DNA from: Trichobilharzia szidati
Lineage: Eukaryota > Platyhelminthes > Trematoda > Strigeidida > Schistosomatidae
Length of the DNA stretch: 64,000 bases
Assembly: GCA_944472155.2 (NCBI GenBank)
Contig: OX235271.1
Location: forward strand, 97,291,256 to 97,355,255
Direction of reading: 5' to 3'
Numbering within the stretch: position 1 is the stretch's first letter; the number at the start of each line of letters is the position of its first letter. Both the position numbers and the translations under genes were made by a program. Positions 20,167 through 62,863 of the stretch are shown here, piece by piece. The notes below the pieces were generated by a model. The model did not search any database. It saw only the letters and a program-made list of their open reading frames with translations, and was not told where the DNA came from.

Positions 20167-20661
20167 TTCTATAGTTTGGTTTGTAAGGGTTAGTTATGTT
20201 TCACGAATTGATCACGGACTGATATCAATTAGAGAACCATTGAAAACGACAGAATACTGGACAGCTGCTTCATCCTAGTTGGGGAATCATCGGAAGTAAG
20301 CACCCACTGGGATTCGAACCCAGGACCTTCCGGTTACAAGACAAGCGCGTATACCATTCAGCCACTGGGACCCGATTCAGTGGCTCATGAATTCTAATTC
20401 TACCAATTCGTGATTTAGCGCGACCTCAACCATTGTCGTTGGTGGGACATCCAGAAGTAGAAGTTAAAATTCATGAGCCATTGAATTGAGTCCCAGTGAC
20501 TGAATGGTATACGAGCTGCCTTGTAACCGGAAGGTCCTGGGTTCGAATTCCAGTGGGTGCGTACTTCCAGTGATTCCCAAACTAGGATGAAACAGCTGTC
20601 CAGTACTCCCTGGTTTTCAATGGTTCTCTAATTGATATCAGTCCGTGATCAACTCGTAAAA
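20167..20661. mobile_element. SINE family A (older subfamily) full inverted dimer, 11-bp TSD
   Basis: GTATCTAAGTT occurs at 20156-20166 and 20662-20672. Between them a minus-strand and a plus-strand monomer lie head to head, joined by a centre (CAACCATTGTCGTTGGTGG) and by inverted copies of AATTCTAA and its surroundings. Each monomer has a tRNA-like head (GGATTCGAACCC or GGGTTCGAATTCC on its own strand) and a hammerhead relic, cores CCGAUGA and CCAGUGA. Stem III ACAGCTGT is intact on the right; on the left the flanking GAAA is GAAG. The flanking duplication encloses both monomers, so they inserted together. Confidence 0.88.
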
Positions 20662-20917
20662 GTATCTAAGTTATTTGTTATCAGACTAATGGAGATATTA
20701 AGAGACCATTTCATGCAGCCTTTAGGACAAAAAGAATTGAAGCAAATTAGAGTAAGTTTTGGTGTTTAAATGAAAACAGTGTTTTTCGCAGCTGTTTCAA
20801 TGACTGTTTCATGGAACTTCCTTTTTCTTTATCTGATCCTACAATCTTTATTGTTTGGAGTGAAACTTACTCGCTGGTTCTTTTAAATTTCTAATTGTTC
20901 TTTGCAATCAAATCACA

Positions 20918-21115
20918 GTGGTTAGGACTCTCGCCGACCATGCACATGGTCCGGGGTTCGATCCCCTGTCGGCGCACACCCGATATCTATGGTCGGCGTG
21001 TAAAATTTGGGCTACCGATATCCATGCTGAAAATGTCATACTTGTACTGAAAATACGGTGTGGCATCAAGCTGCTATCGAAAATATAAAAAATATCGAAA
21101 ATAAAAATAAAGAAA
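20918..21115 (+). mobile_element. SINE family B copy
   Basis: The head CACAGTGGTTAGGACTCTCG and B box GGGGTTCGATCCCC lead to GTCGGCGCACACCCGATATC. The 3' hairpin is TGTCATAC…GTGTGGCA, and an A-rich tail follows. The hairpin differs from the family form by one compensated pair. Confidence 0.8.
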
Positions 21116-21484
21116 AATTTATTTCTTAAGAACTCTGAGCTTTCAAAACTGAAACGCTTTAAAAGTTTAGTGTTTTCCTTTCACAATTTCAGCTTTGTTT
21201 TATATCAACTAGTAATAAAAGTGTGAATATATTACACATGAAACAATGAAACGTGTTTAGACAACTTCGTACTGTATGTCACTGCAACAGTAAAATTACC
21301 ACACAAGTTAAGCAGAAGGAGAATATCTATAGATTACAGTCCCATCTTTTCCTGAAAATGTTACCTCATGTGTCTTGAGGATTGGATTAAGTTTTATGCG
21401 TTTCTCGCAGTTAGCATGATGGAGTTTGAAAATAATCATAAGTGTATGATGCTCTCAGTTTTCAAGCAGTAGTTTTTGCATTTT
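21116..21484. other. AT-rich spacer
   Basis: Nothing recognised. Confidence 0.4.
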
Positions 21485-21901
21485 GATTTGGTTGTGTTCT
21501 CTGAGCTGGTTGATTTCATTGCGAAGCTTTCATTGTCCTTCTAGACAACATCTTCAGCGTAGGCTTTAATATAAAGTGAACTTGTTTGAATTCTCCATGA
21601 ATGATATAAGTGTATCTCCTGACAACCATTGTTGTGACTGGTTGTTAATTTACGTGTCTGTTGGTCATTTCTATTGACTTGGAATTCGAACTTTCTTGTC
21701 ATGTGATTTATTTTCTGTTAGTTGGTAAATTCGATTTGTAGTAACGTGTTTGTTATTTCCTGATTTATCTGAGTACCAGGCGTTTAGAAAGTCCCTGGCA
21801 TTTTCGGTGTTTCCTCTGTTTAAAACTTCCACATTCTCTCAACCAAATTGGTGTCGGAGATTGTCTACATGCATTGATGTGAAAGAATACGTATCTTGTC
21901 T

Positions 21902-22443
21902 GGTTACAGGATTTCACCATGAACTGACATCGGTTAGAGAACGATTGGAAAACCTGGGAGTACTGGACAGCTGTTTCGTCCCAGTTCGGGACTCTTCATC
22001 GGTACTCACCCAACTCCAATGTTCGAACTCAAGACCTTCTGGTTATAAGGCGAGCTCGTAGACCATTAAGCCACTGGGCCCCGATGCAATGGTCCATGAA
22101 TTCTAACTTCTGCCAATTCATGACATAGCGCGACCACTAGCCAGTGTCATCGGTGGCGAGTATTTGTCTTCACGCCCGACCTGATTTACCTTATTGCTCA
22201 CGATTTCCCATTAGAACCCCAGCTAGAAGTTGGAATTTGTGGGCCACTGGATCGGGCCCCAGTGGTTTAAAGGTCTACGAGTTCGCCTTGTAACCAGAAG
22301 GTCTTCGGTTCGAACCCCTGTGGATGCGTAGTGCTGAAGAGTCCCAAACTAGGACGAGACAGCTGTCCTGTACTCCCAGGATTTCCAGTGGTTCTCTAAC
22401 CGATGTCAGTTCATGATGAAATCCTGTAACCAATACTTTAGCA
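21902..22443. mobile_element. SINE family A inverted dimer nested in a PLE, 10-bp TSD
   Basis: TATCTTGTCT (21892-21901) and TATCTTATCT (22444-22453) flank the insert. The related PLE at 8.5 kb shows the unbroken site, so the insertion of the whole dimer is demonstrated by an empty-site comparison. Left hammerhead core AUGAAGA; right core CUGAAGA but with GAGA in place of GAAA. The outer arms, GGTTACAGGATTTCA and its complement, are at both ends. Confidence 0.88.
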
Positions 22444-22627
22444 TATCTTATCTTTTCACGGATAATTTATGTTCTTGGATTAGGATTCGAAGGGGACGCC
22501 TACTTTGACCAATGTAATGTTTGTCGCAGTTTATGCAATTTATTTTTTAAATGGTATTGAGCTTATCTTCTTTTACTGTTGAGTCCTTTGGTCTGCACAA
22601 TAATGAATGAAGTGATTGTGTCATCTT

Positions 22628-22808
22628 GTGTACGTCGGTGGCACAGTGGTTAGGACTCTCGCCGACCATACACATGGTCCGGGGTTCGATCCCCTGTCGG
22701 CGCACACCCGATATCTATGGTCGGCCTGAATTTGGGCTACCGATATCCATGCTGTAAATTCCACACTTGTACTGAAAATACGGTGTGGAATCAAGCTGTA
22801 AATCAAAA
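22628..22808 (+). mobile_element. SINE family B copy nested in a PLE
   Basis: Complete head (GTCGGTGGCACAGTGGTTAG, B box GGTTCGATCCCC), body, and 3' hairpin TTCCACAC…GTGTGGAA followed by CAAGCTGTAA and a TCAAA-rich tail. It splits PLE sequence on either side. Confidence 0.8.
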
Positions 22809-23108
22809 TCAAATCAAACTCAATGTCTGTTTCAAATGGTCTTAATATTCTAGCCTTTTTTCAGGGATATTTTTTATATATAACCTCTTTTCTTGTGGTC
22901 TTTAATCATGGTTTCTTGTTGGTATTCCGATTTGATTTATGAAAATATATAAAGTCAGTCTGTTTCTACTCTTTGAGCTTCTTGATTTATACATATCGAG
23001 TAGCAATGAAAGATTAGGCATAACAATATAGACTTTAGCACAATTTAGGTTAGACAAAGATTTAAAATATCAGTAGTAACATTTGAGTGAAGTACTACTC
23101 TTAGTTTT

Positions 23109-25574: not shown

Positions 25575-25892
25575 TACTCTTAGTTTTACTCAGCTACAAA
25601 TTGCATTTCTTATTGACCTTAATGAGGGTTTTAAGGTGACCAGTAACGTACAATAAAAATCACAGATATCCAAAACCCGATCGCTGGCTCATAATTCTTT
25701 TACAAATGTAATACTACAAAGTTATGAATAGGGATGGTTTAATACCCAAATATTTAACACCAAATGTAGCATTCATAATATTCTTACCACCTTGCACTAA
25801 TGCACACAAACTCCACGCATCAACTGTGACCCTCCGGTCTAGTGGTATGCCTTACATTTCTTGATTAAAAAAGTCACTGTTGATTATAAGTT

Positions 25893-26175
25893 AATTGGTG
25901 GATGGTGACTAGCAGTGGAATCAAGGATGCGCATTTCGTCCTATTTGGGGCTCGTCACTGGATGTACCTGCATTTCCCAGTGAGTGATGATGTCCCCACC
26001 GAGGCTCGAACACAGTGCCCATAGTTTCAAACGCCAAAGCGTTATCCAATAGACCAATTGGGCCACGACAACCACCTCTTGTGCAACGGGTCTTATTAAT
26101 TATTTAATTCAATTTTAGATTTTCCCGTCGATTGACTGGACCGAAGTGCTTGGTCTCAGGTTGACATGTCGGCTT
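25893..26175 (-). mobile_element. SINE family E (Smα-like) with hammerhead relic
   Basis: Minus strand: head with GTGTTCGAGCCTCGG, then GTACATCCAG and a hammerhead-like segment with the C of CUGACGA deleted (CAGTGACGAG), GCCC…GGAC, GAAA and stem III ATGCGCAT. The 3' end reads GACTAGCAGTGG on the opposite strand. A scrap of the same family is at 26222-26263. Confidence 0.75.
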
Positions 26176-26263
26176 CTTGTGCAGATGTTTCGATGATGTC
26201 TGGGGATGTAATTAGAAGTTAATTTGTTGGATGGTGACTAACAGCGGAATCGAGGTGGCTGTT

Positions 26264-27869
26264 AATTAACCAGAAAAAGTTGCTTAATTACAATTTCATT
26301 CAAAAAGAGATTAAACAAAAGTTTCTGCATATATTTATCCTTTTTTCTTTTACATAATCCAAAGAAATTCCAATTCACACTAATACGAATAAGTTTTCTT
26401 AATACTTTCTTTTTTTGTGGTTGAATTTTTACCTTATGAGTTGTTCTTTTTTTGATGTGGATTAATTGCTAATTAACTGTAACTGTGGAAATTGAAGCAT
26501 TTCGTTAATTTGGTTCCTTACATTACTAGAATGATCTATTTTATAACTTATATACGGATTATGCTTAAAAATTCTCACTGAAAGTACACTGACGCACTAA
26601 ATACATTGTTCAATTCATTTTATTCTTTCCTGCTTTCTGCCTATTCTTTTAAACTTTTGAAATTTCTGTTACTCTTTTCCGTACGAAATATAAAAGTTAT
26701 GTATAAGCCTTCTTTTAAATGGAAATAAAGCCTTTCCTTGGCTAATAAGATTTAGAATGTTGTAGAGATGTTGAGATCTTGTCTCGAACTTAAATGACAC
26801 TATGATGTGAGTTGTTGTGTATACGTCTTATGTATATGGAAATATTCACAAATTGTTATATTTATTCTTCCTTCTGATCTATTCACCACCGAGGATAAGT
26901 AATGAAATCCGCGCGTATCACTTTGTGTGTGTATGTGTATGTGGCGAGGGGTGGTTGAATACAAGCCTACAAGTGAGTATTTGCTCATCCTTTCTCTAGT
27001 GGTTATAATTGTCTAAAAGTTAAAACTCTTTCACAAATAGGATAAAGAGATAAATGAGATTTTTCTTTCACCACGTTATATGGGGGGCAGGGTGGGTACT
27101 GTCTTTCATCTTTTAGAAAGAGGATAAAAACATGATGACAATCTTAACTTTTCACATTATATTCCGATTTATTTATGGAACAGAAATTAACATATGTCTC
27201 CCTGTTGTTATATATATTTGTTGTCTTCTGGTATGCCAGTGTGTGGCTGTGTGTGTGTATGTATGCGGGTAAGTTTCAAAATCCTCTTTTAATTTTATCA
27301 GTTAGGTCATACAAAGTATGAAATGAAACGAGATGAGATGATTTGTATCTGAATGTGTATGAAATTATGCAAAAGCCCAGTGATAAATATATTTTTTGTT
27401 ACTATAAACGTCCCTCAACAGAGAAAACGTGTTAGGGGAAAACATTTCAAGTCTCCACAACTGAAGTTTACCATAATCTTCTGATAATTCTTTTGTTTAA
27501 TACAAAATTTATTCAGGATTTAAAAGTTTCATTTGTCTTAGAATACAAAAAATAAAAACGAACTTTTTTTTCATTCTATAACAAATTTATTCTAGCTTTA
27601 TATTTTTATCATTTATTTTTGAAAGGGAAGCAGCGGAAAGATATGGAACATAGAAACCAGTCATTAGATTGTGGATTATTTGTAAGAAAGCAGTAAGAAA
27701 ACAAGTGGTTTGATATGCTTTTTTTGTCTCTTGCAGATAACACTCACACCAAATCCATACATGATAATGTTCACAAGTGAACAGTATAAGATTTGCGCAT
27801 TTCCTCTCCACTTTATGTCATGCTGTTCAGTGTGTTTTCTATGCAGTACTGAATTGGGAGAAGTTAGAA
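26264..27869. other. AT-rich spacer with GT-rich simple repeats
   Basis: GT/TG-rich runs at about 26923-26945 and 27238-27262. No gene or element recognised. Confidence 0.4.
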
Positions 27870-28075
27870 TTCAAGGACCATTGGATCGGGTCCCAGTGGC
27901 TCAATGGTCTACGAGCACGCCTTGTAACCAGATGGTCCTGGGTTCAAACTCCGGTGGGTGCGTACTGGTGAAGAGTCCCAAACTGGGGAGAAACAACTGT
28001 ACGTTACTCCCTGCAGGTCTTCCCATGGTTCTCTAACTGATGTCAGCTCATGATGAAATCCTCCGTGCAATCAAT
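27870..28075 (+). mobile_element. SINE family A plus-strand monomer
   Basis: Head CCCAGTGGCTCAATGG with box GGGTTCAAACTCC, then a mutated hammerhead (GGUGAAGA core, GTCC…GGGG, GAAA→GAAAC retained, stem III ACAACTGT) and the arm GGTTCTCTAACTGATGTC. A LINE/SINE C tail scrap follows at about 28178-28215. Confidence 0.7.
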
Positions 28076-28204
28076 ACTGAATTGTTTGGACAAAGAATGC
28101 TCAAGGTAAAGAAATTTTCCTGTTTACATTACTTTTTCGGGATTTGATCAGTTTCAAGTAGGATGATGGATGATGATGAAGCCCTATGGTCAACTGGGAA
28201 CGTG

Positions 28205-28425
28205 AAGGAATCAACAAATCGATGATGGATTGATATCAGTTTGAGAACTATTGAAAACTATGGAGAACTGGACATTTGTTTCGTCCTTATTTGGAATTCT
28301 TGAGTAGTACACGCTAATGACCTCACTGGAGGTTGAACCAAGGACATACAGGCTGCAGAGTGAGCTGGGACGGAATCCAGTAGCTCATGAAGCCTAATTT
28401 CTACCAATTCGCGATTTGCAGTGCT
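28205..28425 (-). mobile_element. SINE family A minus-strand monomer, split by an LTR element
   Basis: Decayed arm (GATTGATATCAGTTTGAG), hammerhead relic and head, ending at CAATTCGCGATTTGCA. The dimer-centre sequence (AAGTATATGTTCTTACACCC) resumes at about 29536, so a Ty3/gypsy fragment separates the two parts. A further arm scrap is at 29655-29735. Confidence 0.65.
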
Positions 28426-29535
28426 ACTGTAACAGTAGAAGACGATGGGTAGACGCAGTCGCGATCCCTGATCAACACGCGAAAACCGTGACTGACGCAC
28501 TAGTTCGACACATCGTTGTAGATCATGGTGTACCAAAGACTATATTGGTTAATCAAGGTCGTTGTTTGCTACAGTTGGGTATCAAGAGGATCAGAACAAC
28601 ACCATATCACCCGCAAACGAATGGTCTGACGGAGAGAAATAACCGTACACTGAAGGAGTGGCTAGCTTTGAAGGGAGGTAGCTGGGAAACAGAGCTTCTA
28701 TTGATTCTACTAGCACATCGTTTGTCCACCCAGGAAACAACAAAGAAGTCACCATTCCAGATGATGTATGAGAGGAAACCACGGCTACTAATACACAGTA
28801 AAATCTGGCCCCTCCATCAGGAATGGAACAAGACGAGGCTGCTAAATAAGCGGAAGGACTCCGTCAGGAATGTGAAGCGCAAACAGAAGAAAGACGCCTT
28901 GAAATCAGAACAGGGAGAGAAGATGTGATGCAGAACCTTTGAGGTCGGCGGTCAAGTAAAGTATAGAGATAGGAAGGATGTGGGCCAGGTTCACGGAAAC
29001 TCCTGTCAAAGTGGGATGGACCATATACTGTCACCGAGAGACATGGTCTCGTTTTTACCGTCAAAAGAGGAAATCAGCAGAAATGGAATTACATCAAACA
29101 ACTGCAGAAATGGATTCAGTGAGATAGGGAAGCTGGGACCAAGATACAAAAGGAAGGGGTAGAACCAAGAAGGTCGGAACGGCTCCGTCAGAAACCATTT
29201 GATGGGAGGGTCGAGTGTGGTATGTGATACTGATGAGATTTATCAGTAGTATATAAAGAGACATTCATTGGCATAAAACATAAAATAGCAGGAGGATACA
29301 TTTGATGTCAGAGAAAGCCAATGATGCAGTGTTGCTGAGATACGCGGTAGATGTGAAAGGAACACAAAGAAACACAAAATGAAGGACATAAGTAGCACAA
29401 CATAGAAGATCTGTGCAAATGATGTGCTGAATATGAGGCGTATATAATTTCGCTATATAGAGATAACAAATTCCAAATAAACATTCCTTTATTAAGTCAC
29501 TCATGTTCTGCCGTTACATTACTGCCATCCAGCGC
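28426..29535 (+). mobile_element. Ty3/gypsy retrotransposon fragment: integrase end plus 3' LTR
   Basis: The frame 28416-28925 contains integrase core sequence: RRRWVDAVAIPDQHAKTV, HGVPKTILVNQG, then RIRTTPYHPQTNGLTERNNR and ILLAHRLSTQETTKKSPFQM. A deletion fuses NQGR directly to LLQLGIKR, removing part of the core. A further frame-shifted stretch follows to about 29210. From about 29217 (TGTGGTATGTGATACTG) an LTR-like segment shows a TATA-like TATATAAAG (29249) and AATAAA (about 29476). It probably ends before 29536. No 5' LTR is in the window, so the copy is truncated and immobile. Confidence 0.75.
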
Positions 29536-29735
29536 TGTCGGCAAGTATATGTTCTTACACCCGACCTAGTGGACTCCACTGGTTACGGCTTCTCACAAAG
29601 GACTCCAGGCGACTTCTTCCTCTATCCAGTCAATGGTGAGCATTACATTAATATTCAAGTGTTACTTTATAGGGATTTGAATAGTTGCAAGTTTGATAGT
29701 GGATTAATATCACTTAGAGGACCATTAAATATCTG

Positions 29736-34790: not shown

Positions 34791-34869
34791 GGAGTGAAAT
34801 ATATGGGTCGTTCGATGCGTGTTTTATTCGACAGTCAAGGAACATTATCCCGATTAGTTACATAAATAT

Positions 34870-37430: not shown

Positions 37431-37613
37431 AATAGTGAATGATATTTTTGATTGCACACTAGTCAGTAATTAGTGTAATGTGTCCAGTCCTATCTTCGGT
37501 GCAGACTGAATTCTATCAGTCATGTTTGCAATGTGGCCACCATGCTAGGTAGCTCGCCATTACGGTGCACTGTGAATTGTTTGTGTTAGATGGTTGGAGG
37601 CAATCGGCAGGAA

Positions 37614-37658
37614 GCCTTGGACCTAGGTTTCGTGCTAGTTGGCACTCATCAGCAAGGC
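37614..37658 (-). ncRNA. Type I hammerhead ribozyme, family D left arm, core intact
   Basis: Minus strand: stem I GCCUUG with CAAGGC; core CUGAUGA; stem II GUGC, loop CAACUA, GCAC; GAAA; stem III ACCUAGGU, a full palindrome; C at the cleavage position. All invariant core bases of a type I hammerhead are present. With no loop in stem III, a stable fold may need two molecules. Cleavage is predicted after GGUC. Confidence 0.85.
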
Positions 37659-37979
37659 GTATCTGCAACCTTGAAGGAACTGATGTCCCTTGTGAGATTC
37701 GAACCCGCGTCACCCAGTGCTGCAGTCAGAGACGTTACCACTGAGCTATTCAGGCTCGCGACTGACCTCCTGTAGGACTGTATTGGATATTTTTGATTGC
37801 ACACTAGTCAGTAACTAGTGTAATGTGTCTGGTCCTATCTTCGGTACAGACTGAATTCTATCAGTCAGGAGGTCAGTCGCGAGCATGAATAGCTCAGTTG
37901 TAACTTCTCTGACTGCGTCACTGGGTGACGCGGGTTCGAATCTCAGAAGGGACATGAGTTCCTTCAAGGTTGCAGATAT

Positions 37980-38024
37980 GCCTTGCTGATGAGTGCCAAC
38001 TAGCACGAAACCTAGGTCCAAGGC
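37980..38024 (+). ncRNA. Type I hammerhead ribozyme, family D right arm, core intact
   Basis: The same elements as the left arm, on the plus strand: GCCUUG/CAAGGC, CUGAUGA, GUGC…GCAC, GAAA, ACCUAGGU, C. It lies about 45 bases after the B box of the tRNA-like head, so a Pol III transcript of the head would be cut by it. Confidence 0.85.
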
Positions 38025-38068
38025 TTCCTGCCGATTGCCTCCAACCATCTAATACCAATGGTGAGTGA

Positions 38069-38464: not shown

Positions 38465-38473
38465 TCAAAGTAT

Positions 38474-39074
38474 ATATTCAAGTGTTGGTTTGTAGGGATT
38501 TGATTGGTTACAGGATTTTCATTATGAGCTGACATTAGTTAGAGAACCATTGGAAAACCTGGGAGTACCGGACAGCTGTTTCGTCCTAGTTTCGGACTCT
38601 TCAGCAATACGCACCCACCGGGATTCGAACCCAGGACCTTCTGGTTATAAGGCGAGCTCGTATACCATCACGCCCATGGGACCCGATCCAATGGCCCATG
38701 AATTCTAACTTCTGCCAATTCACGACATAGCGCGACCCCTAGCAAACGTAGTTACCTGGGGTTCCAGTGAGAAGTCGTGACCAGTAGGGTGCAGCAGGTC
38801 GGGCGTGAGGACAAATACTCGTCGAAGACATTGGCTAGGGTTCGCGCCATGTCGTGAATTGGCAGAAGTTAGAATTCATGGGCCATTGAATCGGGTCCCA
38901 TTGGCTTAATGGTATACGAGCTCGCCTTGTAAGCAGAAGGTTCTGGGTTCGAACCCTGGCGGTGGGTGCGTACTGTGAAGAGTCCGAAACTAGGACGAAA
39001 CAGTTGTCCATTACTCCCAGCAGGTCTTCCATTGGTTCTCTAACTAATGTCAGCTCATGATGAAAATCCTGTAA
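38474..39074. mobile_element. SINE family A inverted dimer, 9-bp TSD
   Basis: TCAAAGTAT occurs at 38465-38473 and 39075-39083. The left monomer is on the minus strand and keeps the full terminus (TTCAAGTGTTGGTTTGTAGG) and an intact hammerhead core. The right monomer, on the plus strand, has lost one base of the core (ACTG-TGAAGA). Centre with AAATACTCGTCGAAGACATT. tRNA-like heads carry GGGTTCGAACCC. Confidence 0.88.
38565..38610 (-). ncRNA. Type I hammerhead ribozyme, family A, core intact
   Basis: Minus strand: stem I GUAUUG with CGGUAC (two G-U pairs in place of the family's A-U and C-G); core CUGAAGA; stem II GUCC, loop GAAACUA, GGAC; GAAA; stem III ACAGCUGU palindrome; C at the cleavage position. 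Stem I stays pairable despite changes on both strands. Confidence 0.8.
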
Positions 39075-39083
39075 TCAAAGTAT

Positions 39084-39839: not shown

Positions 39840-39846
39840 AATGAGT

Positions 39847-42919: not shown

Positions 42920-42931
42920 TATTTACAGTTT

Positions 42932-43334
42932 GTTTTTCGAGTTTGACTACGGATTGATATCAGTTAGAGAACCATTGGAAACCAGGGAGTACTTGACAGC
43001 TGTTTCACCCTAGTTTGGGAATCATCGGTGGTACACACCCACCGCCAGGGTTCGAACCCAGGACCTTCCGGTTACAAGAAAAGTTCGTATACCATTCAGC
43101 GACCGGCACCTTACTCAATGGTCAGCCCATGAATTCTAACTTTCACCAATTAGTGATTTTAACGCGACCACCAATCAGTATAATCTGCTGGAAATCTATC
43201 CTCACTCCCAACTGGATGGATGGGATGAAACAGCTGTCCAGTACTTCCTGCTTGTTTTCAATGGCTCTCTAACTAATATCAGTCCGTGGGCAAACTCGAA
43301 AAACAAATTTAATCCTTTCAAACCAACTCTTGAA
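42932..43334. mobile_element. SINE family A (older subfamily) inverted element, 12-bp TSD
   Basis: TATTTACAGTTT occurs at 42920-42931 and 43335-43346. The left minus monomer has head GGGTTCGAACCC and hammerhead relic CCGAUGA with ACAGCTGT. The right monomer keeps only the hammerhead end (GATGAAACAGCTGTCC) and the outer arm. The right terminus AACCAACTCTTGAATA is complete. Confidence 0.85.
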
Positions 43335-43346
43335 TATTTACAGTTT

Positions 43347-45091: not shown

Positions 45092-48000
45092 CTGTGAACA
45101 ACCGAAGAAAACAGAAGAGAGAAGAAGGATACCATGTAAATTTCCTCTAATAAATATTATGAAATATATAGATTCAGAGTGAAAAATCCAATAACCGTTC
45201 ACGTCTTACATTTAATTACCTTATTAATGAGTTATTAATTAACAGATAAAAATATCCACCATTTTATCAATTTGGTTTTTAAAATTGATGGTGTATAAGT
45301 GTCCAGCTTTTAACAGATATGGTATTTTGGCGCAAGCTAGAATACAACTGTCCGTCTGCACATTGAATTAAACTGTAATACAAAATTTTCATAAAAGGAA
45401 ATTAACTCAAACTGACTCTATTAAACTTATAAATAAGTTCATTATGTGCATAGCACTGTCATAGTGCGTCGGCTGTTCAATGTTAGGATGCTTGTCAATG
45501 ACGTAGGCGGCCTGGGGTTCGAGTAATGATCGATGCACCCCTAAGCCTCGCCTAGTTTACTATTCGGCAGTAAGTTTGGTAAAGAGAAAAGTTTGAGTGT
45601 GAGGCTAGCGACCGCACTCCGTACAAACAACACCAACACTACTGAAACTTCAAGGTCTCACACTTGAAACCCGATGTTCCCTTTGGGATGCAAAGGAATA
45701 GCAAAAGGCAGTGTCATAATTAACTGGTGACGAAAAATGCTTATGCAAAAAGTGGATTCTGTTTAGGCACAAAATAATCAATATACACACTACTCCTAGG
45801 ATATTTTGATCAAGAGCAGCGCTTTAGTCATTAGCCATATTAGGTGTGAGTTATTCTTAGGTGCCATGAAATAACTACTTAATTAATAATTGACAAGTTA
45901 AATTATGTTTAGAGTAAGTAAGCTTTCAACGAAGTCAACGAAACATTCGGCAAAGTATATCTTCAATGGAGCACCTGATTAGAAGGTGAAAAAAATATAT
46001 AATATAGGGGCTTGAATAGATGTGCTTTTTTTCTAAAAGGTATTTATAATTTATTAGATATTCAAATGAAAATTATTGAAAGCTGGAATTATGCATACTG
46101 AAATCGAGCTGAATATTTTATGCTACTTAGTTGTCAGATTTAACTTAGTTTAGAGCAATAGTTGTATGATACCCAAACCAAGTGTGTTATCTTTTACCAG
46201 TTCCATTTCTAACTCTTTTGTAACTTGCTTGTACCTATAATTTTCCGCTGGTAGTTCTATTCTGCCGAATAAATTTATCTTCATTGGCATATTAACTGGT
46301 TCGATCAATGTGTCGATACTGATCTGAATTCCAGCATGATGTCTTCAGTCTGACAGTGATTAGAAATGAACTAGTCAGTCAAATGTACTTGTCAAAATGA
46401 ATGATATTGCAAATGAAAGTAAACAAGTCGAAACAAACGGCTTGGAACTCAGAGAAGTATTAAGGCACGGATTCATGAAGTTCATTTGTCATTATGAACT
46501 AACTGATTTGGTAGAGTGAGACGAACAACGACAATTATACTTTTGAATTAGAGATAAGCATCTGAAATATTCCCATATAAATTAGAAGTTTAAGTAAATT
46601 AAGTAAATTCTTTTCAGTAAGTTATCATCAGTGTTTTATAACTACAAAATAAAATATTTGTTGCGATTACAATAATAGTGGCAGATATATTTTAACGTAA
46701 AGCATGATTATCAATCTGAAGTCTGATTAATTCCAAGTTGTAGGGTGACGAGATGAATAGTATTCGCGTAACAAACATGGTGAGTTGAACGCGGTTTTAG
46801 AACAGTGTGAACTGAATAAACATAATGTGACTTTTAGATAAAAGCGTAGTCCTTGTGGATCAATCGTCTGCTGAGTAACATTTCTGTGTAAATGATGGTG
46901 AACAGTAGTTCTGAGTACCAGTGATAATATTATCACTCCCTGGAATGCAAAGATATCCAGTAAATAAATTTTAAACAGAACGAGGTACCTGTCCATGTTT
47001 CCATTGTCAGTTACCGCTGAACACGTAACGTCCTTATTCTTTTGTTTCCGCATTTCTGTTTAAATTTATTATTACCAAACAGAGGGTGCGTATGAATTAT
47101 AACTTATCAGAATCCTTTAACCTTCTGTAAACTCCTCTTCCAAGTCCTCCATATCAATTTTTATTTAAACCAGTTTAATGAAATTCTAGTAGCCTTCCTC
47201 GCCATAACCTGAGTTTTTATGGTTCTGTTATCTGAACCAGAGAGGAAGCTTACATTTTGACAAAACCTACTATTCAAGTGTTGGTTTGTAGGGATTTGAT
47301 TGGTTACAGGATTTTCTCCATGAGCTGACATTAGTTAGAGAACCGTTGGAAAACCTGGGAGTAATGGATAGGACAAAAACCAGGAGAGAAGGTCCTGGGT
47401 TCGTATCCCGGTGGGCGCGTACTGCTGAAGAGTCCCAAACTAGGGCGAAACAGCTGTCCAGTACTCCCAGGTTTTCCAGTGGTTCTCTAATAATGTCAGC
47501 TCATGATGACACCTACTATATTTAAGTAGATAGACAGTTAAAAGACACCGCATTTCACTTCATTTTATTTTTTCGTAAGAAGTTGTAGAATGTCTTCTCC
47601 TGATCATAAATTATCAGTCAGCTGTTTAGTGTTAATAGAATAATTTCAATATCACAAGAAATATTTAATGGTAAGCTGTTCTAGCTGGTCTTCCGTTTTT
47701 GATGGCTGCTTGTAGCAGAATTCAGGATGTGATTTTTGTCTTGATTTTGACTTGTCAGCTGGATATTCTCGCTAGAACTTGAAGCCAGCACCTGTCCATT
47801 CAAATATCATATGAGTAAAAATTGTCTTGATTGCTTTAAACATGATTGGTCATCATTGTGTAAATTTCGTATCTCAGGTTCCACAAAGCAAACGATACAT
47901 TGCAAAAAGTAACGTCTTCGCTGGAATTGAAAACCAAGATAAATCTCGAACTGTTGGTTGAAACTTAGTTTACAAGACTGACACCTGTGGTAGAAGTTTT

Positions 48001-51000
48001 ATATCCGGAGAGGATAACAATGTTGGAGGCTTAATTTCACTCGTCCAGTGCACCGTAAATCAGAAACTGCAATAAGACGTTGAATTAAAAACCCTTCATA
48101 ATTTTCACTTAGTTCACTTGGATGCTGAGAATGCAAATAGCATATATTACATCGAATAACTGACATGATTCTCCCACATAATGAGGCCTTCTATGAATCA
48201 CTGCCATCACTCATATAAATGAGTCAGTACTACCATGTTACCGACTATGAGTGTTTCCAGTACTTAACGCATGCTGTCAGTATTCGATGTTTGACTGTTG
48301 CAAAATCATGATTATTTTGTACTTCTGGTTTAGATATTTAAACACTGCCAAACGGTCATCTCGGTTAGCAGATCTCGCCGTCAAAAAGCTCGCCCTGTAA
48401 CCAGAAGGTCCTGGGTTCGAACCCCTGTGGGTGCGTACTGATGAAGAGTCCCAAACTAGGACGAAACAGCTGTCCAGTACTCCCAGGTTTTCCAATGGTT
48501 CTCTAACCAATGTCAGCTCATGATGAAAATCTTGTAACCAATCAACCAAATCTCTACAAACCAATACTTGAAAAAGCCTTTAGTCAGAAGGTATGTAAGA
48601 AGCTGTATAAGACCGAAGCAATAATGAATTCTTTTAACATAATATCTGGACAAATTACTACAAAGTACAACTTACACGGTGCAGGAAAAGGAAATTTTCC
48701 AAACGGGTTTGTATTTGCCAGTAATTTGTTGACAATCATATCATTCTCCATAAAACTGTTCATATTTGAAAAGTGTAGCTCATTGCCATTCGTTATTAGG
48801 CTACTGTGATCAATGCAACTATTGGAATACAACCCATCTAACCTACAGCATTGGTTATCTGCAAAATGCTTTCCATTATTATTACCATCACAAATATTAT
48901 TATTTTTAGTAATAGAATTGATTTCATTGAAAAAGTCAACTTTGTCTTTAGACTGTCTTTCATATAATTGGTCTGAATTTGTTGTATCACTATTATTAGT
49001 TAACAGATGTCTTTCTTTCATATTTACTGAAGGTATATTCTCCTTTGAATTGTCATAAAACTCTTCTGCACCAATGGGATCAGATAAACAACAAGCTAAA
49101 CTACTTAGACTGATTGGATCATGTTGTCCGCCTAGATGACCACGACATTCTATCTTCTTTTTACGTGCTCTTGCATTTTGAAACCATACCTAAAATGGGA
49201 TAAAATAACAAACGAAAAAATCTGATAAGATAGAAGAGACAGAAAATTTTCTCCAAATATTTACGGATGGCAAGAAAGTTTGTTACTAGCAAATTGAATT
49301 ATTTAAGAAAGTAGACAAATTGATGTTTTTCAGCCGAAGAATAAAATAAAAGACAACGTAAAATATTCGCATTCATAAAATCTTAGCAGTTAAACGTATT
49401 TTTGTGTACTCAGCACAGAAATATATTTGTTGTATGGGGATTATGAGTATGTAGTAGATGCCTGAATTACATAACCTGTTGGCTGGGAAATAAAGTGCTC
49501 AACATTAAACTGGGCTGTGACAGATTGCCAGTGATGAATAATCCATATTTTATCAGGTCATTTGATGGGGGAGTGTTTTTATAGAAACTTCTAGCTTTGC
49601 AGCTTGGTGTCACTTGCTGTAGCGTCTCTTGTTTACTAACTATTCAGCAAATCATTTTTATAAATCAGTTTTTGTGGATTTTAAACAATAATTTGAAAAT
49701 TCCCATTCAGTCATAGAAAAGAAAAGGCGTTCAGCAAAGAGTTACTCTTTTCGGCGATATCATTCTCAAGCTGTACAAACCGCAAATTTATAGTAATTTT
49801 TCTTGGCAACAAAAGGAATATTTCCAAAGATGTGTTAATGCAATTGTTAATTTTTGACAACAAATTACGTAATTTAGAAGGCGTTAATCGGTTAGAAACT
49901 AAAATAAAGTTACAAAAGTAGGTTGGGTGACGTAATCTAATTGCTAGGGTTCAATGAAAAATGAATGAGAGTCAAGTTAATAATCTGAGTAGAATTCACT
50001 TGAAAATAAACGAAAATGGAGTTAGCAACAGTCGTCATGAGGGTAGAGATTTAATAGAGGGTGGGGGTAGAAAATAATGCAATTAAGAAACAGACAAACA
50101 AAGAAGAAAGAGGTAAGACAAAATTACGTATTTGGTGTTGAGATAGATCAGGACCATTGTAGATTTAGTGACTGAAAAAACTTCTTTTGTATGCAGAGTT
50201 CAGGATTCAATATGTGAATTGCCATTGCTTCTGCAGTTTGAAGAAGTTTAATTCGTACTCTTTTGGCAAGATTCCCACGTATTGTGTAGATAACTGAGAA
50301 GTTGTTTTGTGGGTTTGCTTGGTGTCCGGATTCGATCAAGTGTTCTAGGATAGAGTTGTGGCGGGGGGATCTTCTTTCTCCTTTATAAAACCATGAAGGT
50401 AAGTGTTCGCTGATTCGTTTGGATAGCAAACGCTGGGTACGGCCGACATACCTAGCTCCACATGAGCAGGTGAATTGGTAGATGCACATTGATGAGGCCC
50501 CCAGTGGAAGCTTATCCTTCACGTTCGTGCGAATCATTGGTTTCGTAGAGAAAGTTAGTCTGAGTTCAGCTGCGAAGAAGGTTTTCTTCAGTGAACGGCA
50601 CAGGCGGTTTCTCAGTATTTCTGCTGAAGAATCTCCGTTGAATTGTAGATTCAAATAGAGAAGTTTCCTGGGAGCAGTAAGCATAGACGGTTTTTGTGTT
50701 TTGGGCTTCATGGCTTTTGTGATGAAACGTTCCGGGTAACCGTTTTCAAGGAGGATTCTTTTCAGGGTCTTCAGCTCCTCTTCTATAGTTTCCGGACTGC
50801 AAATGTTGTGGATTCTGTGAGTCAGTGAGCGGATTAGATTTCGTTTTGTATATAGAGGCACCCAACTGTGAAAGCTGATGAGTTGTCCATTCCATGTCGG
50901 TTTTCTGTGAATGGATCTTTTGAGTGTCCCATCTTGTTCGCGTCTTGTTAGTTGCACATCCAGAACAACTTAGAATAAAATGATATGGAATATATATATA

Positions 51001-54000: not shown

Positions 54001-57000
54001 CACTCAACGGCCTCCTCAGCGGGTGTTCAATCCATCTCCACTTTCTCCTGCATATTTGTTGGGTGATTGGTTCTTGTTGTGTTTGTCCCCATAGTTTCCT
54101 GTTGGTGATTCTTTCCGGCCATCTGATCTTCAGTATGGAGCCAGCGAAGACAGCTGTTGATAAATGTCTGCAACAGGCTGTTGGAAATATTCTTTGTGAC
54201 CCGCTGCCAAGTTTCTGATCCGTATAGAAGAACTGACTGACTTGACGTTTGTATTGAAAATCCGAATTTTGTTGTTGATGCTGAGTGACGAAGATTTCCA
54301 GATTGGTTTCAGGTTGATGAATGTGTTTCTCGCCTTCCCGATTCTCGATTTGACATCCTCGTCCGTTCCACCTGCCTGTAGTTGAGACAATGCTCCCTAG
54401 ATAAGTGAAAGAAGTAACCTCTTTCAAATCCCTCCCGTTGATGGTGATTGGCGCTGGATGTTGCTGTTGTTGTTGGTTGGTCATTTTCATAACCTCAGTC
54501 TTGTCTATGTTCACGTGGAGTCCTGTCTTTGCTGCTTCTTCGACCAGTTTGTCGGTTTTCGCTTGTAAGTCTTCGATTTTGTGTGACATCAAACATAAAT
54601 CATCCACGCGCGAAATCCAGGTCTTCTAGGTTCTTCACGTTGGTCCAGGATATCCCTATCTTCTCGTTTCCCACTGTCTGACGCATAATCCAGTCCATAA
54701 TCCATCACCACCTCTTAATGTAATGATTATGTAATAGAGTTAGAATTCTGATTAATGATTTAAATGTTAAACTATTCATGGCTTTTGACTGTTTTTATTT
54801 TATATCGATAAGCTTAAAATATTCCTTTTTAATTTTACTAATTTGTAAACTTTCCTGAAATATCAAAAAGAATTAAGGGCTGTATAGCCGAATCAGACTC
54901 ACAATTCTCAAATTGTGCAGTTCGAAGTATTAATTTACCACTCTTTCCCTTAGAAACCAAAAATTTTCAAAACAAAATATTTGAACCAGTTCAAATACTA
55001 TAAATGTCAGTGATGAACACAAGCATCATACACAAGACAACATATACCACTGATTGATATAAACATCCAGAAACTGTCATGTCAACCAGACTGGAGTGAT
55101 CTAAACATAGGATTGCCGTTTTACAAATAGTCTGAACTGATTCAAATCTCACAGCTGGATCATTCGAGTAAAACCGCTGATCACCTCTGCTCCAAACGAG
55201 AGAAGTGGCGATCGTATTTAGAGCACTTCAACCTGGTCGGTAAGCACTGCTGTTTAAGATGTGTGACTTCTAACTATTCATGCTAATCATTAACATATAC
55301 CATCAAGGGATGCATACAATGTTTTAGTCAAACAGTAAGTTTCAAGCCCGATAAAGGGGGAGATTAAGTGAAATAACACAATAATTTACTAAAATGCTCC
55401 TAAAGACATCTTTCTCAGTCTTCTTCACAGATAACTCTTAGTGGATATGCGGCTGCGACAAATGAGATAAGATAGCTTCTGGTGGACTGTACAAAGACTA
55501 CTCAGAATCCTGAGTTCATCATTGTCAAATTTTAAAGTTAGTTTACATAATTCCACAAAACTGAATCCCCACAGTTACCGAAAATACTTCTGATTAATTC
55601 CTGAGATAACATATTAAATTCTATGTATATTCGGAATATTGCGGATGACTGGTTGTTACTATACACTTGTTTTACAAGACACTGAGTTTTGACTTTCAGT
55701 TTTAAGTATCTACCTGTTTGTCTTAGTCAAGAGGGTTCACAGTAAGTGTGCAAGCATCTTAACTCTGGATCTCAAATGTGAAGGAACTAATGTTATAGGT
55801 TCTGTTGCCTATTACCACTAAGCTATAAAACATAAATATGGTCCAATATCGTGCAGGTAGTAAGTTATTTAATTTGAGAAATATATATCAAGCCGACCAT
55901 GCACATGGTCCGAGGTTCGACCCCCTGCCGACGCACCCCTAATATCTATGGTTGGCCTACAAAATTTGGGCTACCGATATCACATGCTGAAAATTCCACA
56001 CTTGTACCAAAAATACGGTGTGGAATCAAGCTGTAATAAAAAAATAAATAAAATAAATTTAATTTCTTAAGTGTAAGAATATGATTGAGTGTTTGTCTTG
56101 TGAGTGCCGTCAAGATATGCTGCTTTCGAAACCCTCAGTAGATAAGTACAAATTAAGAAAATGTAAAAAGTTAGGTGGGAATGCGATAGGTATTTAGATT
56201 TTTTGCCGTCTATACTCCTTACGTATTCATTTTTATCTACATATTTTGAAACATTTGATTCTGAATGATACTTTACCCTCTAAACTGGTTGTTTTAATTT
56301 ATTAGTTTAGTCAACTGAATCTGTAATGCAAATAGTCAGTGATGTGGTATACTAGATACGTTCAAATTCTTCTGTGTTTTGGGGAAGTGTGTGTGTGTGG
56401 GGGGGGCGGGGAATTCGACTAATTTCAATGCAGATTTCATCACTGACCTACATGATTTAGAGAATCATTGGATGCCAAGGAACAATAGGCATCTGTTTCG
56501 TTCTAGTTTGTAACAGGTCGGCTGAATGATCAGTAGGTTGGCTTCGCATTCTGAAGTCCTTGGGTTCAACCTCTGATGCAGTACTGGGTACGCAATGCTA
56601 AAGAGTATCGAACTATGACAAAACATCTGTCCAGGGAGCTCTAGTTTTCATTGGCTCTTTAACATCATTCGGCTCAAGAAAAAATATATACTGACATAAG
56701 TTTTGCATTCACATAGATACAACTTAAGTAAGTACGCTCCGTAAACTACGGAATTTCTTCCATCAGCGTATATCTAAATGATACTTAAAGCGAGATATTC
56801 ACAATAATTTTTTTCCTTCGAAAACTTAAACAATTTATTTGGCAACAATAATGTCATCGAGAATAAAAGCAGAAATTCCGATGGGAATCTACTGCTGATC
56901 AACATGCTTCTTAAAATCCAGCTTTCGTTATTCGTTTTCTTCACTTTATAAAAGTAAGGACCAAACTCTTGAAAATTAATCTGCTGCTCGCTAGTGACTT

Positions 57001-60000
57001 GCTACAGGACACAGTTTCCTGGAGTTCCAGTGAGAAGTCGTGACCAGTGAGGTCCATCCAGATGTCACGTGTGAGGATGGATGTCCCACCGATGACATTG
57101 GTTGGTGGTCGTGCTAAATCACGAATTGGAGGAAGTTGGAATTCACGGATTGGCCACTGAATCGGGTCTCAATGGCTGAATGGTATACGAGCTTGACTTG
57201 TATCTGACGGTCCCGGGTTTAAACCCAAGTAGGTGTGTACTGCCAAGGACTGCCAAACTAGGATGAAACAATTGTCCAGTACTCCCTGGTTTTCAGTGGT
57301 TCTTTAACTGATATCAATCCATGGTCAAACTCGTATAAACAAAACTCTTTTAACGACTCATATTCTTGATTTGAATCTGCACATTCGTAAATTTGATGGT
57401 CTCACAACCAAAAGCAAATGTACAACACTGCGGTTAGCAATTTATTTAAGTTGTTCACTTTCCCCTTTTGTATCTTTCTGGTGACTATGACATCATGTGA
57501 ACCAGATATTCTAATCGTCTAGTACTTCTCTTACATTGAACAGTAGCTTTTGCGAACACCTAGTTCTGTTTTCTTAGAGTAGTGCTTTATTTTTGGGAAC
57601 TTCTTCTAGAAAGCACTGAATTGTGTATAATTATGTTTCCTGTCAGCAAGTTGAAGGGATGCTGAACCTCATATACTTATACTTTGCAATTAATAAGTCG
57701 ATATAATACAACGACGAGATCAAGGGACTGTAATCCAGCTATAAAGCACTACACACCAGGCAGAAAATGTCTAAAAGAAGAATGGAGCAGTATTTGTGCA
57801 ATATTTAAAAACAAAAGGAACTCACTAAAATTTTGGTTATCTCTGTCTTCATTCATACCAACTGTAAAATTATCTTGATCCATTAAAAATGGTTGCAGTT
57901 TATCTGCCTGACAAGATACCACTGCATTCATATTAGAAGTTGTATCTGCATCAAAATGCAGCAGCTTGAGTGATAAACACTTTGTAACATAATGTTCATA
58001 GCAGAATACATCATTATTAAAAATGCCGCATTTATCACCTTGATATAATTGACGACCACACTGAAAACATGTAAAACACGATACATGAAAGGGTATCTGG
58101 TTTAATTTATGTACTTTAACATCTTCTGGGACTTGAAGTTGACATCTTCCACATTGTTTAAACCTATGAAACAGAAACAGTAAGCACTGTAACACTGATA
58201 TGTGCATTACATTGACAGTCATTATTAAATGTAAAACAGAAACTTTTTGAGTGCTTGTTGAGTGCTTTCACCAACTGAGTTGCGAGACCTAGATACTAAT
58301 CTGTTACTAACTAATTTCAGTAGTCAAGGGTCTTAGGAATAAATGATACACATGTGCTAATATTTACACTATGATAAAAGACGGATTCTTTACTGAATAA
58401 AATTGCCATTGCAATTCTGATAGTAAGCAGCTCAAGAAATTTAGTGGTATATCAGTGCGCCGGTGGCACAGCTGTAGAATGCTCTCCAAGCACGCATGTG
58501 GTCCGGGGTTCGATCCCCGGCCACCTACTCACTCCCTTACCTCGCTAAGGCAGTAATAAAACTAGTAAAGAGGGAAGGTTGGGCAAGAGGCCAGCAACCC
58601 CGTCCCGTAGAAATAAACATCAATGCTACCGTAACTTCGGGCCTGTAGCTTGAAGCCATATGTTCCACTGGTAACGCAAATGAATAAAAAAAGAAGTGGT
58701 AAATAAGCTTTTATTGAGGCTGGTGTTTAAGTATAATCATTATTAAAAGGAGTCCTGAGAAATGCTTTACTTTCCGTACGGATGACTTTGAAGTAAAGCT
58801 TCTGATGTCAGAAGTGAGTGGTTCATTAGTCTTAACAGGCTAAAGTTTCTTCATAATCACATATAAGTTGTATTGCATAACAAGCACAAAATTCCAACCA
58901 TCTTCTTGTCACTAGCCTTCCCTCCATAGCTAGAAACACATTTCATCTTGTCTTTGATTGTAGTCTTCATGAGAATACCTGGTATTTACAGAAATTAGTT
59001 ACTAGAGAATACCCACAGCACTGTGCAAGTTCTTTGGGATCTGTGATATGACCATTAGGAAGGATGATATGAAACTCAAGATCCCTGTTACTCAATGATG
59101 GATATGAGAGGTTAATTCATAGAAAGTCTTCCACCGAGGTTTTGATGGCTTCTGATCACTGTCAGTAAACTGTGAGTTGAGTCTGTCGCTATGTGGGGAT
59201 CAATTCGTATACACTACCTATTTCAATGAGTGGCCAATAAAGCCTATAGAGTTTCGGGTCAGAGTTCCTTATTTTAGCAGCAAGTGACACAAATTCAGGT
59301 TTCAGAAGACAAATAAGTCTCTTTAAGCTATCAGACATGTCTTGCTGTTAATAACCAACCAGAACAACATCCAAATATAGTCATCTCAAAAATCCTGTCA
59401 TTGCGGCTAACCATGTGCCTGAGTCCTTAAAAATCAGGTGTGCTACTTCATATTTAGGTCTTAATTTTCGTCGCCGATTATACTTGGCTATAACAACTAA
59501 TTTCAGTTAAATAACCTAATGGTAAGTAAATCTGAGAGGTTAGATTATAAACCAAGTGCAATAAAAACTAATGACTTCCATTTTTGATGTTATGCATTGG
59601 ATACATAAGAGAAATTGTGTGTTTGAGCTCCTTTATAAATCATATGCCATTAAAATACACGTGTTTCTGATACAGTTAATATGTGCTTGACTTGTACTCA
59701 TGAAATTCGCCACCTCCTAGTGATTAATCAGTGTATCCATCACAGTCAGACACGAGGTCGGTCCAGCCCAAATGGTTCAGTGGCACGATCTCTGAGTACT
59801 GCACTTGATGACAAAGATTCAAGTCATCAAGGGGATATCGGTTCCTTCAAGGTTACAGATGCTCCTTGCTGACTAGTTCCAATAAGAAAGGAACTTAGAT
59901 ACAAGGCTTCCTGTTAGTTGTCATTAACCACACAAGGTTGTACTTTGTTAAACAATTTGTATACCAGTTTAGTTTTTTGGTTTGATATTGTGGCATGAAA

Positions 60001-61792: not shown

Positions 61793-61892
61793 CTGCAAAG
61801 TGAAGCGAAGGAAAATGTAGAAGAGATAAATTAAACTATAAAGTAACCACTAATTCTGTTACCCTGAAAAATGTAGTTTTCATATCTTTATT

Positions 61893-62088
61893 TATTTTAT
61901 TTTTATTTCGATTATAGCTTGAAACCACACTGTATTTTTGGTACAAGTATGGAATTTTCAGCATGTGATATCGGTAGCCCGAATTTCGCAGTTCGAACAT
62001 TGATATCAGGTGTGCGTCGGCAGGGGATCAAACCCCGGACTATGTGCATGGTCGGCGAGAGTCCTAACCGCTGTGCTACTGGCGCAGG
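61893..62088 (-). mobile_element. SINE family B copy
   Basis: Minus strand: head CCAGTAGCACAGCGGTTAGG, B box GGGGTTTGATCCCC, body, and 3' hairpin with CAAGCTATAAT and an A/T-rich tail. Lies just upstream of the first visible LIM exon. Confidence 0.75.
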
Positions 62089-62340
62089 CAGAAATTTACA
62101 TTTCCACATAATTGGTATAAAACCTCCTCATTATTGATGATTAGTAGAAACTCATACACGCAGTGTGAAATACCAACTGATGCGTCTTTCACATTAGGGA
62201 AATACGTTGATTTTGTCTGCTGCTGAAACTGAAAGCCCCCCAAGTTATTCTAGTTGTAACAAGGTATTATCTTGCGCCAATATTTATACTCGTAGCCATA
62301 CTAATAAAAATTTAGCGCTGAAAAATACAATTGAAGTTCT

Positions 62341-62863
62341 TTTTTTGATTGCGCACTAGTCAGAAACTAGTGTAATGTGTCTAGTCCTATCTTCGGTGCA
62401 GACTGAATTCTATCAGTCATGTTTGCAATGTGGCCACCATGCTGGGTGGCACACCATCACGGTGCACTGTGAATTGTTGGTATTAGATGGTTGGAGGCGA
62501 TCGGCAGGAAGCCTTGGACCTAGGTTTCGTGCTGGTTGGCACTCATCAACAAGGCGTATCTGCAACCTTGAAGGAACTGATGTCCCTTCTGAGATTCGGA
62601 CCCACGTCACCCAGTGCTGCAGTCAGAGATGTTGCTACTGAGCTATTCATGCTCGCGACTGACCTCCTGTAGGACTGCATGTGGCCACCATGCTAGCTCA
62701 GTGGTTACGTCTCTGACTGCAGCACTGGGTGACGCGGGTTCGAATCTCAGAAGGGACATCAGTTCCTTCAAGGTTGCAGATACGCCTTGCTGACGAGTGC
62801 TAAGCAGCACGAAACCTAGGTGCAAGGCTTCCTGCCGACTGCCTCCAACCATCTAATACCAAA
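62341..62863. mobile_element. SINE family D inverted dimer, perfect 12-bp TSD
   Basis: AATTGAAGTTCT occurs at 62329-62340 and 62864-62875. From the left: the block starting TTTTTGATTGCGCACTAGTC, a minus monomer (about 62485-62665), a short join, and a plus monomer (about 62685-62863). Outer ends TTAGATGGTTGGAGGC are inverted. Left hammerhead core UUGAUGA (C3 changed); right core CUGACGA but G instead of C at the cleavage position. So neither should cut, although all helices, including ACCTAGGT, are kept. Confidence 0.9.

Follow-up and report, generated by a model that had tools for sequence, protein, structure and literature searches.

According to the accessible sections of the study on Adineta (PMC3846280), Penelope copies there comprise an open reading frame (ORF) with direct pseudo-long terminal repeats (pLTRs) and an inverted, shorter pLTR placed head-to-head, with a 9-bp duplication in one copy and 8 or 10 bp, or none, in others. 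A 31-bp tail occurs optionally on one of the inverted pLTRs, and a host gene lying between pLTRs was moved in trans (PMC3846280). In the part of the Anolis study available (PMC11167929), the purified Penelope protein acts on both strands of the target, which it cuts and extends, two internal start sites in an A+C-rich stem loop define the tail, and hammerhead mutants still insert, the later steps of insertion being described as yet to be validated. We analyzed a 64-kb window of Trichobilharzia szidati, meaning the whole stretch of 64,000 nucleotides at positions 97,291,256 to 97,355,255 of contig OX235271.1, and observed two families of short elements, A and D, that lie mostly as inverted, head-to-head dimers. 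The best explanation is that they are small retroelements without coding capacity, each with a tRNA-like head and a type I hammerhead, whose transcripts are tandem multimers, and that they resemble short interspersed nuclear elements (SINEs) or to the metazoan retrozymes without long terminal repeats (non-LTR retrozymes). All counts given below refer to this one window and its ten dimers.

SMalpha elements, which Ferbeyre et al. reportedly described in 1998, occur in tandem as well as dispersed. As far as the available text of PMC8490949 goes, SMalpha of Schistosoma mansoni is, like families A and D, SINE-like and carries a type I hammerhead. For metazoan retrozymes, a dependence on Penelope was proposed from shared hammerheads, tandem copies and co-existence, in the portions of three papers at hand (PMC7229834, PMC7761336, PMC8969392). 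Families A and D have in common with the metazoan non-LTR retrozymes, as presented in parts of two of these papers, a short tandem unit (~170-400 bp) that is non-coding and contains a type I hammerhead, as well as duplications of more than 4 bp (PMC7229834, PMC7761336), but they differ from them by their tRNA-like head and by the inverted dimer as a common insertion form.

Segments of each family were collected by blastn with the family consensuses, and two segments were considered a pair when separated by a gap of up to 150 bp. Family A comprises 24 segments and family D five, of which 16 and 4, respectively, are engaged in ten head-to-head pairs (eight A and two D), all with gaps of at most 75 bp. 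A preliminary description, made from the sequence of the same window, had placed both families mostly in such pairs, which is borne out. No tail-to-tail pair of A or D occurs within 150 bp, and the only direct pair within this distance (13014/13309) is one tandem-derived copy in two pieces. At a larger distance, a family A monomer (27850, plus strand) and a degenerate copy (28227, minus strand) lie tail-to-tail, 164 bp apart, in the interval 27850-28312; the monomer has its own duplication. Neither of the SINE families without a hammerhead, B (12 segments) and C (10 segments), shows any pair; some of these segments are cross-hits between their tRNA-like heads. None of the ten dimers is overlapped by an ORF of at least 120 aa, indicating that they are not autonomous Penelope elements.

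The family A unit, ~390 nt long by hand count, is composed, in sense order, of a leader of ~130 nt, the tRNA-like head, the hammerhead, and a first and a second stop. The first stop occurs 52-66 nt after the predicted hammerhead cut and, in three of the four dimers of subfamily A2, coincides with CCTGTAACCA or immediately precedes it. The second (CTTGAA) occurs 28-42 nt beyond the first, giving a tail close in length to the 30-40 nt of Penelope. In family D, hand counts place the first stop (CTAATACC followed by as many as three As) ~40 nt downstream of the cut and the second (CAATCAAAAA) another ~135 nt downstream. On inspection, neither stop coincides with a T-run or with the hammerhead cut. 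The A+C fraction of the last 60 nt is 0.60-0.68 in family A, compared to a window mean of 0.50 (standard deviation, sd, 0.08). RNA polymerase III A and B boxes were recognized by eye in the heads; one A head (20299-20371) matches the Rfam tRNA model below the gathering score (26.4 bits, cut-off 29), and no Rfam tRNA match was obtained for the family D heads at an expectation value (E) of 0.5.

Whole dimers behave as products of one insertion event, as judged from the target duplications. The duplication score used here is the best direct match of the two outer flanks (match +1, mismatch -2, at most 14 bases of slack), and the nulls consisted of 132 flank cross-pairs and 1500 random placements in one run and of 3000 random placements in another. 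Element boundaries were taken from alignment with the sequence already seen and thus not blind, and the random placements were given an equal 14-base slack. The mean score is 9.4 for the ten whole dimers, against 4.6 for the null, with none of 50,000 resamples as high, whereas the single arms, scored between outer flank and central junction, have means of 4.2 (left) and 4.2 (right), with no excess over the null. Scores of at least 9 are found in six of the ten dimers and in 0.43% of the 3000 random placements. Since the duplications surround the dimers and not their arms, the dimers are single insertions, as the preliminary description had proposed; the independent arrival of a second copy beside the first, which that description had named as the opposing outcome, is rejected given the lack of any duplication excess around single arms.

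Exact 12-bp duplications surround four dimers, which, like the others, are named here by their approximate start. Dimer 20167 (20155..20672, score 12) has its tail arm at 20167-20452 on the minus strand and its tailless arm at 20455-20660 on the plus strand, between 20155-20166 and 20661-20672. Two dimers with a shortened right arm have a tailless minus arm and a plus arm with the tail: 12237 (12225..12591, duplication 12225-12236/12580-12591, score 12) and 42932 (42920..43346, duplication 42920-42931/43335-43346), the latter, A42927 in the scoring, reaching a score of 15 since its duplication can be extended to 17 matching bp out of 18. The fourth is the family D dimer 62341 (62329..62875, duplication 62329-62340/62864-62875, score 12), whose minus arm has the full tail and whose plus arm ends at CTAATACCAAA. 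Exact 9-bp duplications are found around 38474 (38465..39083, duplication 38465-38473/39075-39083, score 9; tail arm on the left, minus, and tailless arm on the right, plus) and around 47274 (47265..47519, duplication 47265-47273/47511-47519, score 9; A47271 in the scoring), in which both arms are shortened, the minus arm bearing the tail and the plus arm being tailless. These six are among seven intervals for which duplications had previously been listed; the seventh, 21902 (21892..22453, tailless arm 21902-22220, minus, and right arm ~22218-22443, plus, with a hammerhead in both), has a duplication of 9 out of 10 bp (21892-21901/22444-22453) and a score of 7. Three dimers are additional to that list: 6443-6979 (6437..6992; tail arm on the left, minus, tailless arm on the right, plus; AT-rich duplication, score 8), the family D dimer 37445-38058 (37431..38068; full-tail minus arm, plus arm ending at CTAATACC; weak duplication of 10 out of 12 bp, score 6) and the decayed family A pair 56434-56663 (score 4). 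The targets look A+T-rich by eye; a preference for AT-rich targets is a feature of Penelope insertion.

Single-arm copies of family A insert as well, as shown by monomers with their own duplications. Monomer 27850 (27844..28083, plus), truncated in 5' and ending near the first stop, has a duplication of 11 out of 12 bp (27844-27855/28072-28083, score 9), and monomer 48387 (48383..48577, plus), also truncated in 5' but with the full tail, has an exact 7-bp duplication (score 7, random P 0.06). No duplication was found for the third one, 57013 (56960..57343, plus; score 6), a member of subfamily A1 that starts with a tandem junction. The preliminary description had opposed dimers to the monomers of ordinary SINEs; within the window, whole dimers are indeed flanked by duplications, but monomers with duplications coexist with them, clearly for 27850 and less so for 48387.

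An asymmetry is observed at the outer ends of the dimers. Eight of the ten (six A and two D) clearly contain one tail, one arm extending to the second stop and the other ending at or near the first; at one half each, the chance of eight one-tail dimers out of eight would be 0.004. Once each arm is trimmed at the duplication, the seven A dimers have their tailless outer ends at +66, +62, +57, +52, +60, +61 and +62 from the predicted cut (sd 4.1). Untrimmed alignment ends, which run into the duplication in several copies, range from +52 to +76 (sd 7.1), and seven uniform ends would fall within even this range with P 0.0015 if restricted to the 94 nt after the cut. In family D, a single site accounts, to within 3 bases, for the ends of both tailless arms. 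The inner ends of the 14 A arms, on the other hand, are spread from -244 to +17 (sd 88). We considered whether the dimers could be non-autonomous DNA transposons with long terminal inverted repeats that acquired the tRNA-ribozyme sequence, since Mutator-like elements exist in schistosomes and the duplication length (~9 bp in such elements) and inverted arms would fit. Nevertheless, the dimer ends are unequal by a tail in the eight clear cases, so there is no common fixed terminus, the inner ends vary, and single-arm copies insert with duplications, which makes this origin extremely improbable.

The nature of the template is indicated by copies that contain a tandem junction. Copies 13014 (13010..13350, minus; upstream tail, linker, leader, head, hammerhead), 29538 (29530..29735, minus; a fragment with tail, linker and the leader of the next unit) and 57013 start in the tail of an upstream unit, which is followed by a shared linker (CTTGA..ATTAAT..) and then by the leader. 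In family D, the tail of an upstream unit (37786-37867) precedes, in sense, the full-tail arm of dimer 37445, in which the bases after CTAATACC are common to the target. These junctions indicate that the template is a one-directional head-to-tail multimer and that both stops are internal to a longer RNA.

The central junctions are readable in nine dimers (seven A and two D) and are all different, with one arm reaching farther than the other at the center. The spacers had the appearance of a conserved central loop, an idea that we rejected because they correspond to the 5' leader of the unit, reached to differing extents by the arms. Leaders end at or near GGGGTTC in the left arm of 6443 (6796-6802), the left arm of 21902 (22214-22220) and the right arm of 38474 (38757-38763), a motif that could be the RNA 5' end or a strong stop for reverse transcriptase. 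By eye, a few bases are common to both sides at the joints of 6443, 12237, 42932 and 62341. In the dimer 47274, the inner end of the minus-strand tail arm lies at most 4 nt from the predicted hammerhead cut, and the extra bases at its joint (47369-47386) look like a small plus-oriented fragment of hammerhead, which would be consistent with brief copying of a third template.

Tail and tailless arms do not form two lineages, as the between-dimer distance is 0.164 within the same class (24 pairs) and 0.161 across classes (25 pairs), with a label-swap P of 0.77. Within dimers, the mean divergence of the two arms is 0.139 in A2 (4 dimers) and 0.158 in A1 (2 dimers, the overlap in 12237 being too small), compared to 0.159 (41 pairs) and 0.188 (13 pairs), respectively, between copies; the within-dimer values fall inside the range seen between copies, somewhat toward its lower side. 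At an indel site located after the hammerhead, the partner arms differ in 6443, 38474 and 42932 and agree in 20167, 21902 and 47274, 12237 being unreadable. The right arm of 38474 and monomer 27850 have in common an insertion and a neighboring substitution, both of which are absent from the left arm of 38474; the three bases (TGC) inserted in 27850 are also present in the right arm of 42932. From the junctions, the lack of lineages and the alleles, we conclude that dimers form afresh at every insertion, their two arms coming at least in part from separate RNAs or from separate units of a multimer.

The preliminary description had regarded the dimer as a foldback unit with two heads and two ribozymes, mobile as RNA or DNA. 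This would account for dimers being single insertions, and the differences between junctions could then be later central deletions, which long palindromes are known to suffer. Nevertheless, a propagating dimer would keep its junction, whereas nine junctions differ, and a stable dimer predicts tail and tailless lineages, contrary to the nearly equal distances above. Furthermore, an arm of 38474 has an allele in common with a separate monomer and not with its partner, monomers with duplications exist, and the multimeric template is one-directional. We consider this proposal very unlikely.

Another way to obtain head-to-head arms is snap-back copying, in which one complementary DNA (cDNA) folds at the head end and copies itself, so that the inverted arm comes from the same template. 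Self-priming on an antisense template has been proposed for the Penelope palindromes, in the sections of PMC3846280 at hand, and the within-dimer distances, slightly under the between-copy means, go in the same direction. On the contrary, arms copied in this way should be identical at birth, while three of the six dimers readable at the indel site have differing arms, 38474 by an allele found in another copy, and one arm outreaches the other at the center. For these reasons, snap-back copying appears quite unlikely, although slightly less so than the foldback unit.

The overlap between arms bears on a last alternative, namely that an ordinary long interspersed nuclear element (LINE) inserts the SINE by twin priming, the second-strand primer annealing internally on the RNA and giving a 5' inversion. 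Inversions of this kind are known for the LINE L1, in which the inversion lies within one duplication, as in our dimers, and the second target strand primes internally, as would be the case here, and twin priming yields one tail, a head-to-head orientation and a duplication around the whole. In L1, though, the inverted and direct parts, made on one RNA, hardly overlap, whereas the arms of A and D dimers carry the same region, with 54-264 common aligned columns in seven out of seven dimers (in arms taken with some flanking sequence). Copying of the same region by both arms calls for two templates or units, which argues against twin priming. Additionally, the internal ends are clustered here and not scattered, and the SINE families of the window without ribozyme have no inverted pairs. 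We consider twin priming improbable, while being the least improbable of the alternatives.

The hammerhead itself does not seem to be required for dimer insertion. Rfam matches to the type I hammerhead that exceed the gathering score number 14 in the window, and families A and D hold 11 of these. The preliminary description had assigned a hammerhead to each outward side of the dimers, which holds for four of the ten according to Rfam (21902, 37445, 62341 and 38474, one arm of which is below the gathering score); two dimers (6443 and 47274) show a hammerhead in one arm only, and in the remaining four (12237, 20167, 42932 and 56434) none was found in either arm in a search to E 0.5. Subfamily A1 (12237, 20167, 42932, 57013) has a changed hammerhead core, with CCGATGA instead of CTGATGA in three of five arms and other changes in two, and the hammerhead match of 57013 has an Rfam E of 0.12. 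At the base of stem II, an A-U change apparently matches that of the core. Of the four strongest duplications, three (12237, 20167, 42932) belong to dimers without recognizable hammerhead, suggesting that dimer insertion is independent of a canonical ribozyme. In untrimmed coordinates, 12 of the 14 A arms reach at least 15 nt past the predicted cut, one ends at most 4 nt from it and one, on the 3' side, stops 17 nt short of it. That hammerhead cleavage causes the dimer form is not supported, given the dimers that lack a hammerhead and the majority of arms running past the cut.

From the observed anatomy, duplications, tandem templates and allele difference, we infer priming on both target strands, with Penelope as the probable helper. 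Indeed, we give a probability of about two in three (0.68) that tandem hammerhead SINEs of a retrozyme-like type are moved in trans by a Penelope-like enzyme that primes on both strands. In this scheme, the endonuclease would make staggered cuts ~9-12 bp apart in the target, and the 3' end of each target strand would serve as primer for reverse-transcribing an RNA unit of its own from one of the two internal sites located 3' of the hammerhead. The two cDNAs would then run toward the heads, meet, and be joined wherever they stop. Such two-ended target-primed reverse transcription would give only head-to-head pairs whose arms overlap and which are enclosed as a whole in one duplication, without any lineage of dimers, and the combination of internal start sites and variable stopping would give fixed outer ends, one with a 3' extension and one without, together with variable inner ends.

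The Penelope insertions described in the available parts of the two studies (Pen2a and Pen3a of Adineta vaga, Poseidon of Anolis) have several features in common with the dimers, namely head-to-head inverted copies in one short duplication, an optional 3' tail on one inverted copy, partial tandems, and a type I hammerhead near two internal starts of reverse transcription. The units of the window differ from Penelope in being short and non-coding, with a tRNA-like head, and encode neither reverse transcriptase nor endonuclease. A candidate helper lineage may be represented by three ORFs of the window, which we take to be C-terminal Penelope fragments; this is likely for the first one, at 3194..4000 on the plus strand, which has a weak GIY-YIG match (Pfam E 0.024, 15.4 bits, cut-off 22.6). 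The fragment at 8540..9154 (minus) is 61% identical to it over 134 residues, and the ORF at 50148..50969 (minus) is a distant relative (27% identity over 176 columns, single-comparison E 1e-6); neither has a Pfam match at E 0.1. A search of PDB sequences with two ORFs returned CyaY at E 0.061, a chance-like value, for the first and nothing for the second. No A or D tail was noticed at the ends of the three ORFs on reading, as opposed to computing on, the downstream sequence. A family C SINE without ribozyme (8261-8405, minus) lies just beyond the fragment 8540-9154 and seems to interrupt that ORF.

Several observations weigh against two-strand priming by a Penelope-like helper. A preference of first and second strand for different start sites has to be added as an assumption, the scheme alone leaving the eight one-tail dimers out of eight unexplained, and in Anolis the start site is alike on both strands, whereas the arms of the dimers differ (PMC11167929, partial text). 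Neither arm of 21902 aligns beyond the first stop; the 10 bases that lie between the right arm and the duplication may represent a tail that slippage between two AACCA repeats has shortened, in which case 21902 would be a ninth one-tail dimer. The family D tail measures ~135 nt, against 30-40 nt in Penelope, and the A+C fraction of the last 60 nt of D (0.57-0.58) is within about one sd of the window mean, A+C richness being clear only in A. The duplications of 21902 (random P 0.06) and 37445 are not individually significant, and the decayed dimer 56434 has neither recognizable tail nor duplication. Since within-dimer distances are slightly below the between-copy means, some templates may be shared, and the indel differences in 6443 and 42932 could be later mutations, leaving only 38474 as a strong case. 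Concerning the helper, none was identified; the ORFs of the window are partial and only one has a GIY-YIG match, below threshold. The scale is also small, with ten dimers in 64 kb. Lastly, a further family with hammerhead, SMalpha-like, shows one direct and no inverted pair among its 4 segments, despite the presence of the ribozyme.

This family is represented in the window by three copies, presumably SMalpha-like. They differ in sequence from A and D and are not inverted dimers. One of them (25891-26255) has a second partial tail 328 bp farther and resembles the remnant of a tandem array in a single direction. The window also contains an ORF with a homeodomain (52523-53107, minus, Pfam E 1e-8), and hence seems to include host gene exons too. 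Its hammerheads and SINEs are in keeping with flatworm DNA of a schistosome kind.

The preliminary description knew of no described element with this plan. This has to be revised, as Penelope elements possess head-to-head inverted pLTRs, a short duplication and an optional tail (PMC3846280, available sections). The plan is thus known from Penelope, and it is its use by a tRNA-headed hammerhead SINE that was not encountered in the literature searched, as far as the partial texts of these papers extend. Inverted dimers of hammerhead SINEs or retrozymes found no description within this limited set; in the available text of the retrozyme papers, the word "inverted" does not occur in PMC7229834 and occurs once in PMC7761336, in the title of a reference. 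Viral contigs contained no match to a hammerhead pattern of 28 bases, nor did genome contigs to one of 30 bases.

On balance, we lean toward the view that the dimers record, in the genome, priming on both strands by Penelope enzymes that act in trans on a hammerhead SINE. The dimer pattern would add an argument from insertion structure for the mobilization of retrozymes by Penelope. It bears on how Penelope insertion is completed, on why copies carry inverted ends, and on which enzyme moves the hammerhead retrozymes of animals. A short SINE provides a clean read-out in this respect, its ends being free of ORF and pLTR, and each copy records the cut in the target along with both starts and both stops. 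Should the pattern extend to the whole genome, the many copies available would allow a direct test of the two-strand model. If the model is true, hammerhead SINEs would be driven by Penelope, with uncleaved tandem (or circular) RNA as the usual template, and the inverted terminal copies of Penelope elements themselves would come from two separate RNAs and not from self-priming.

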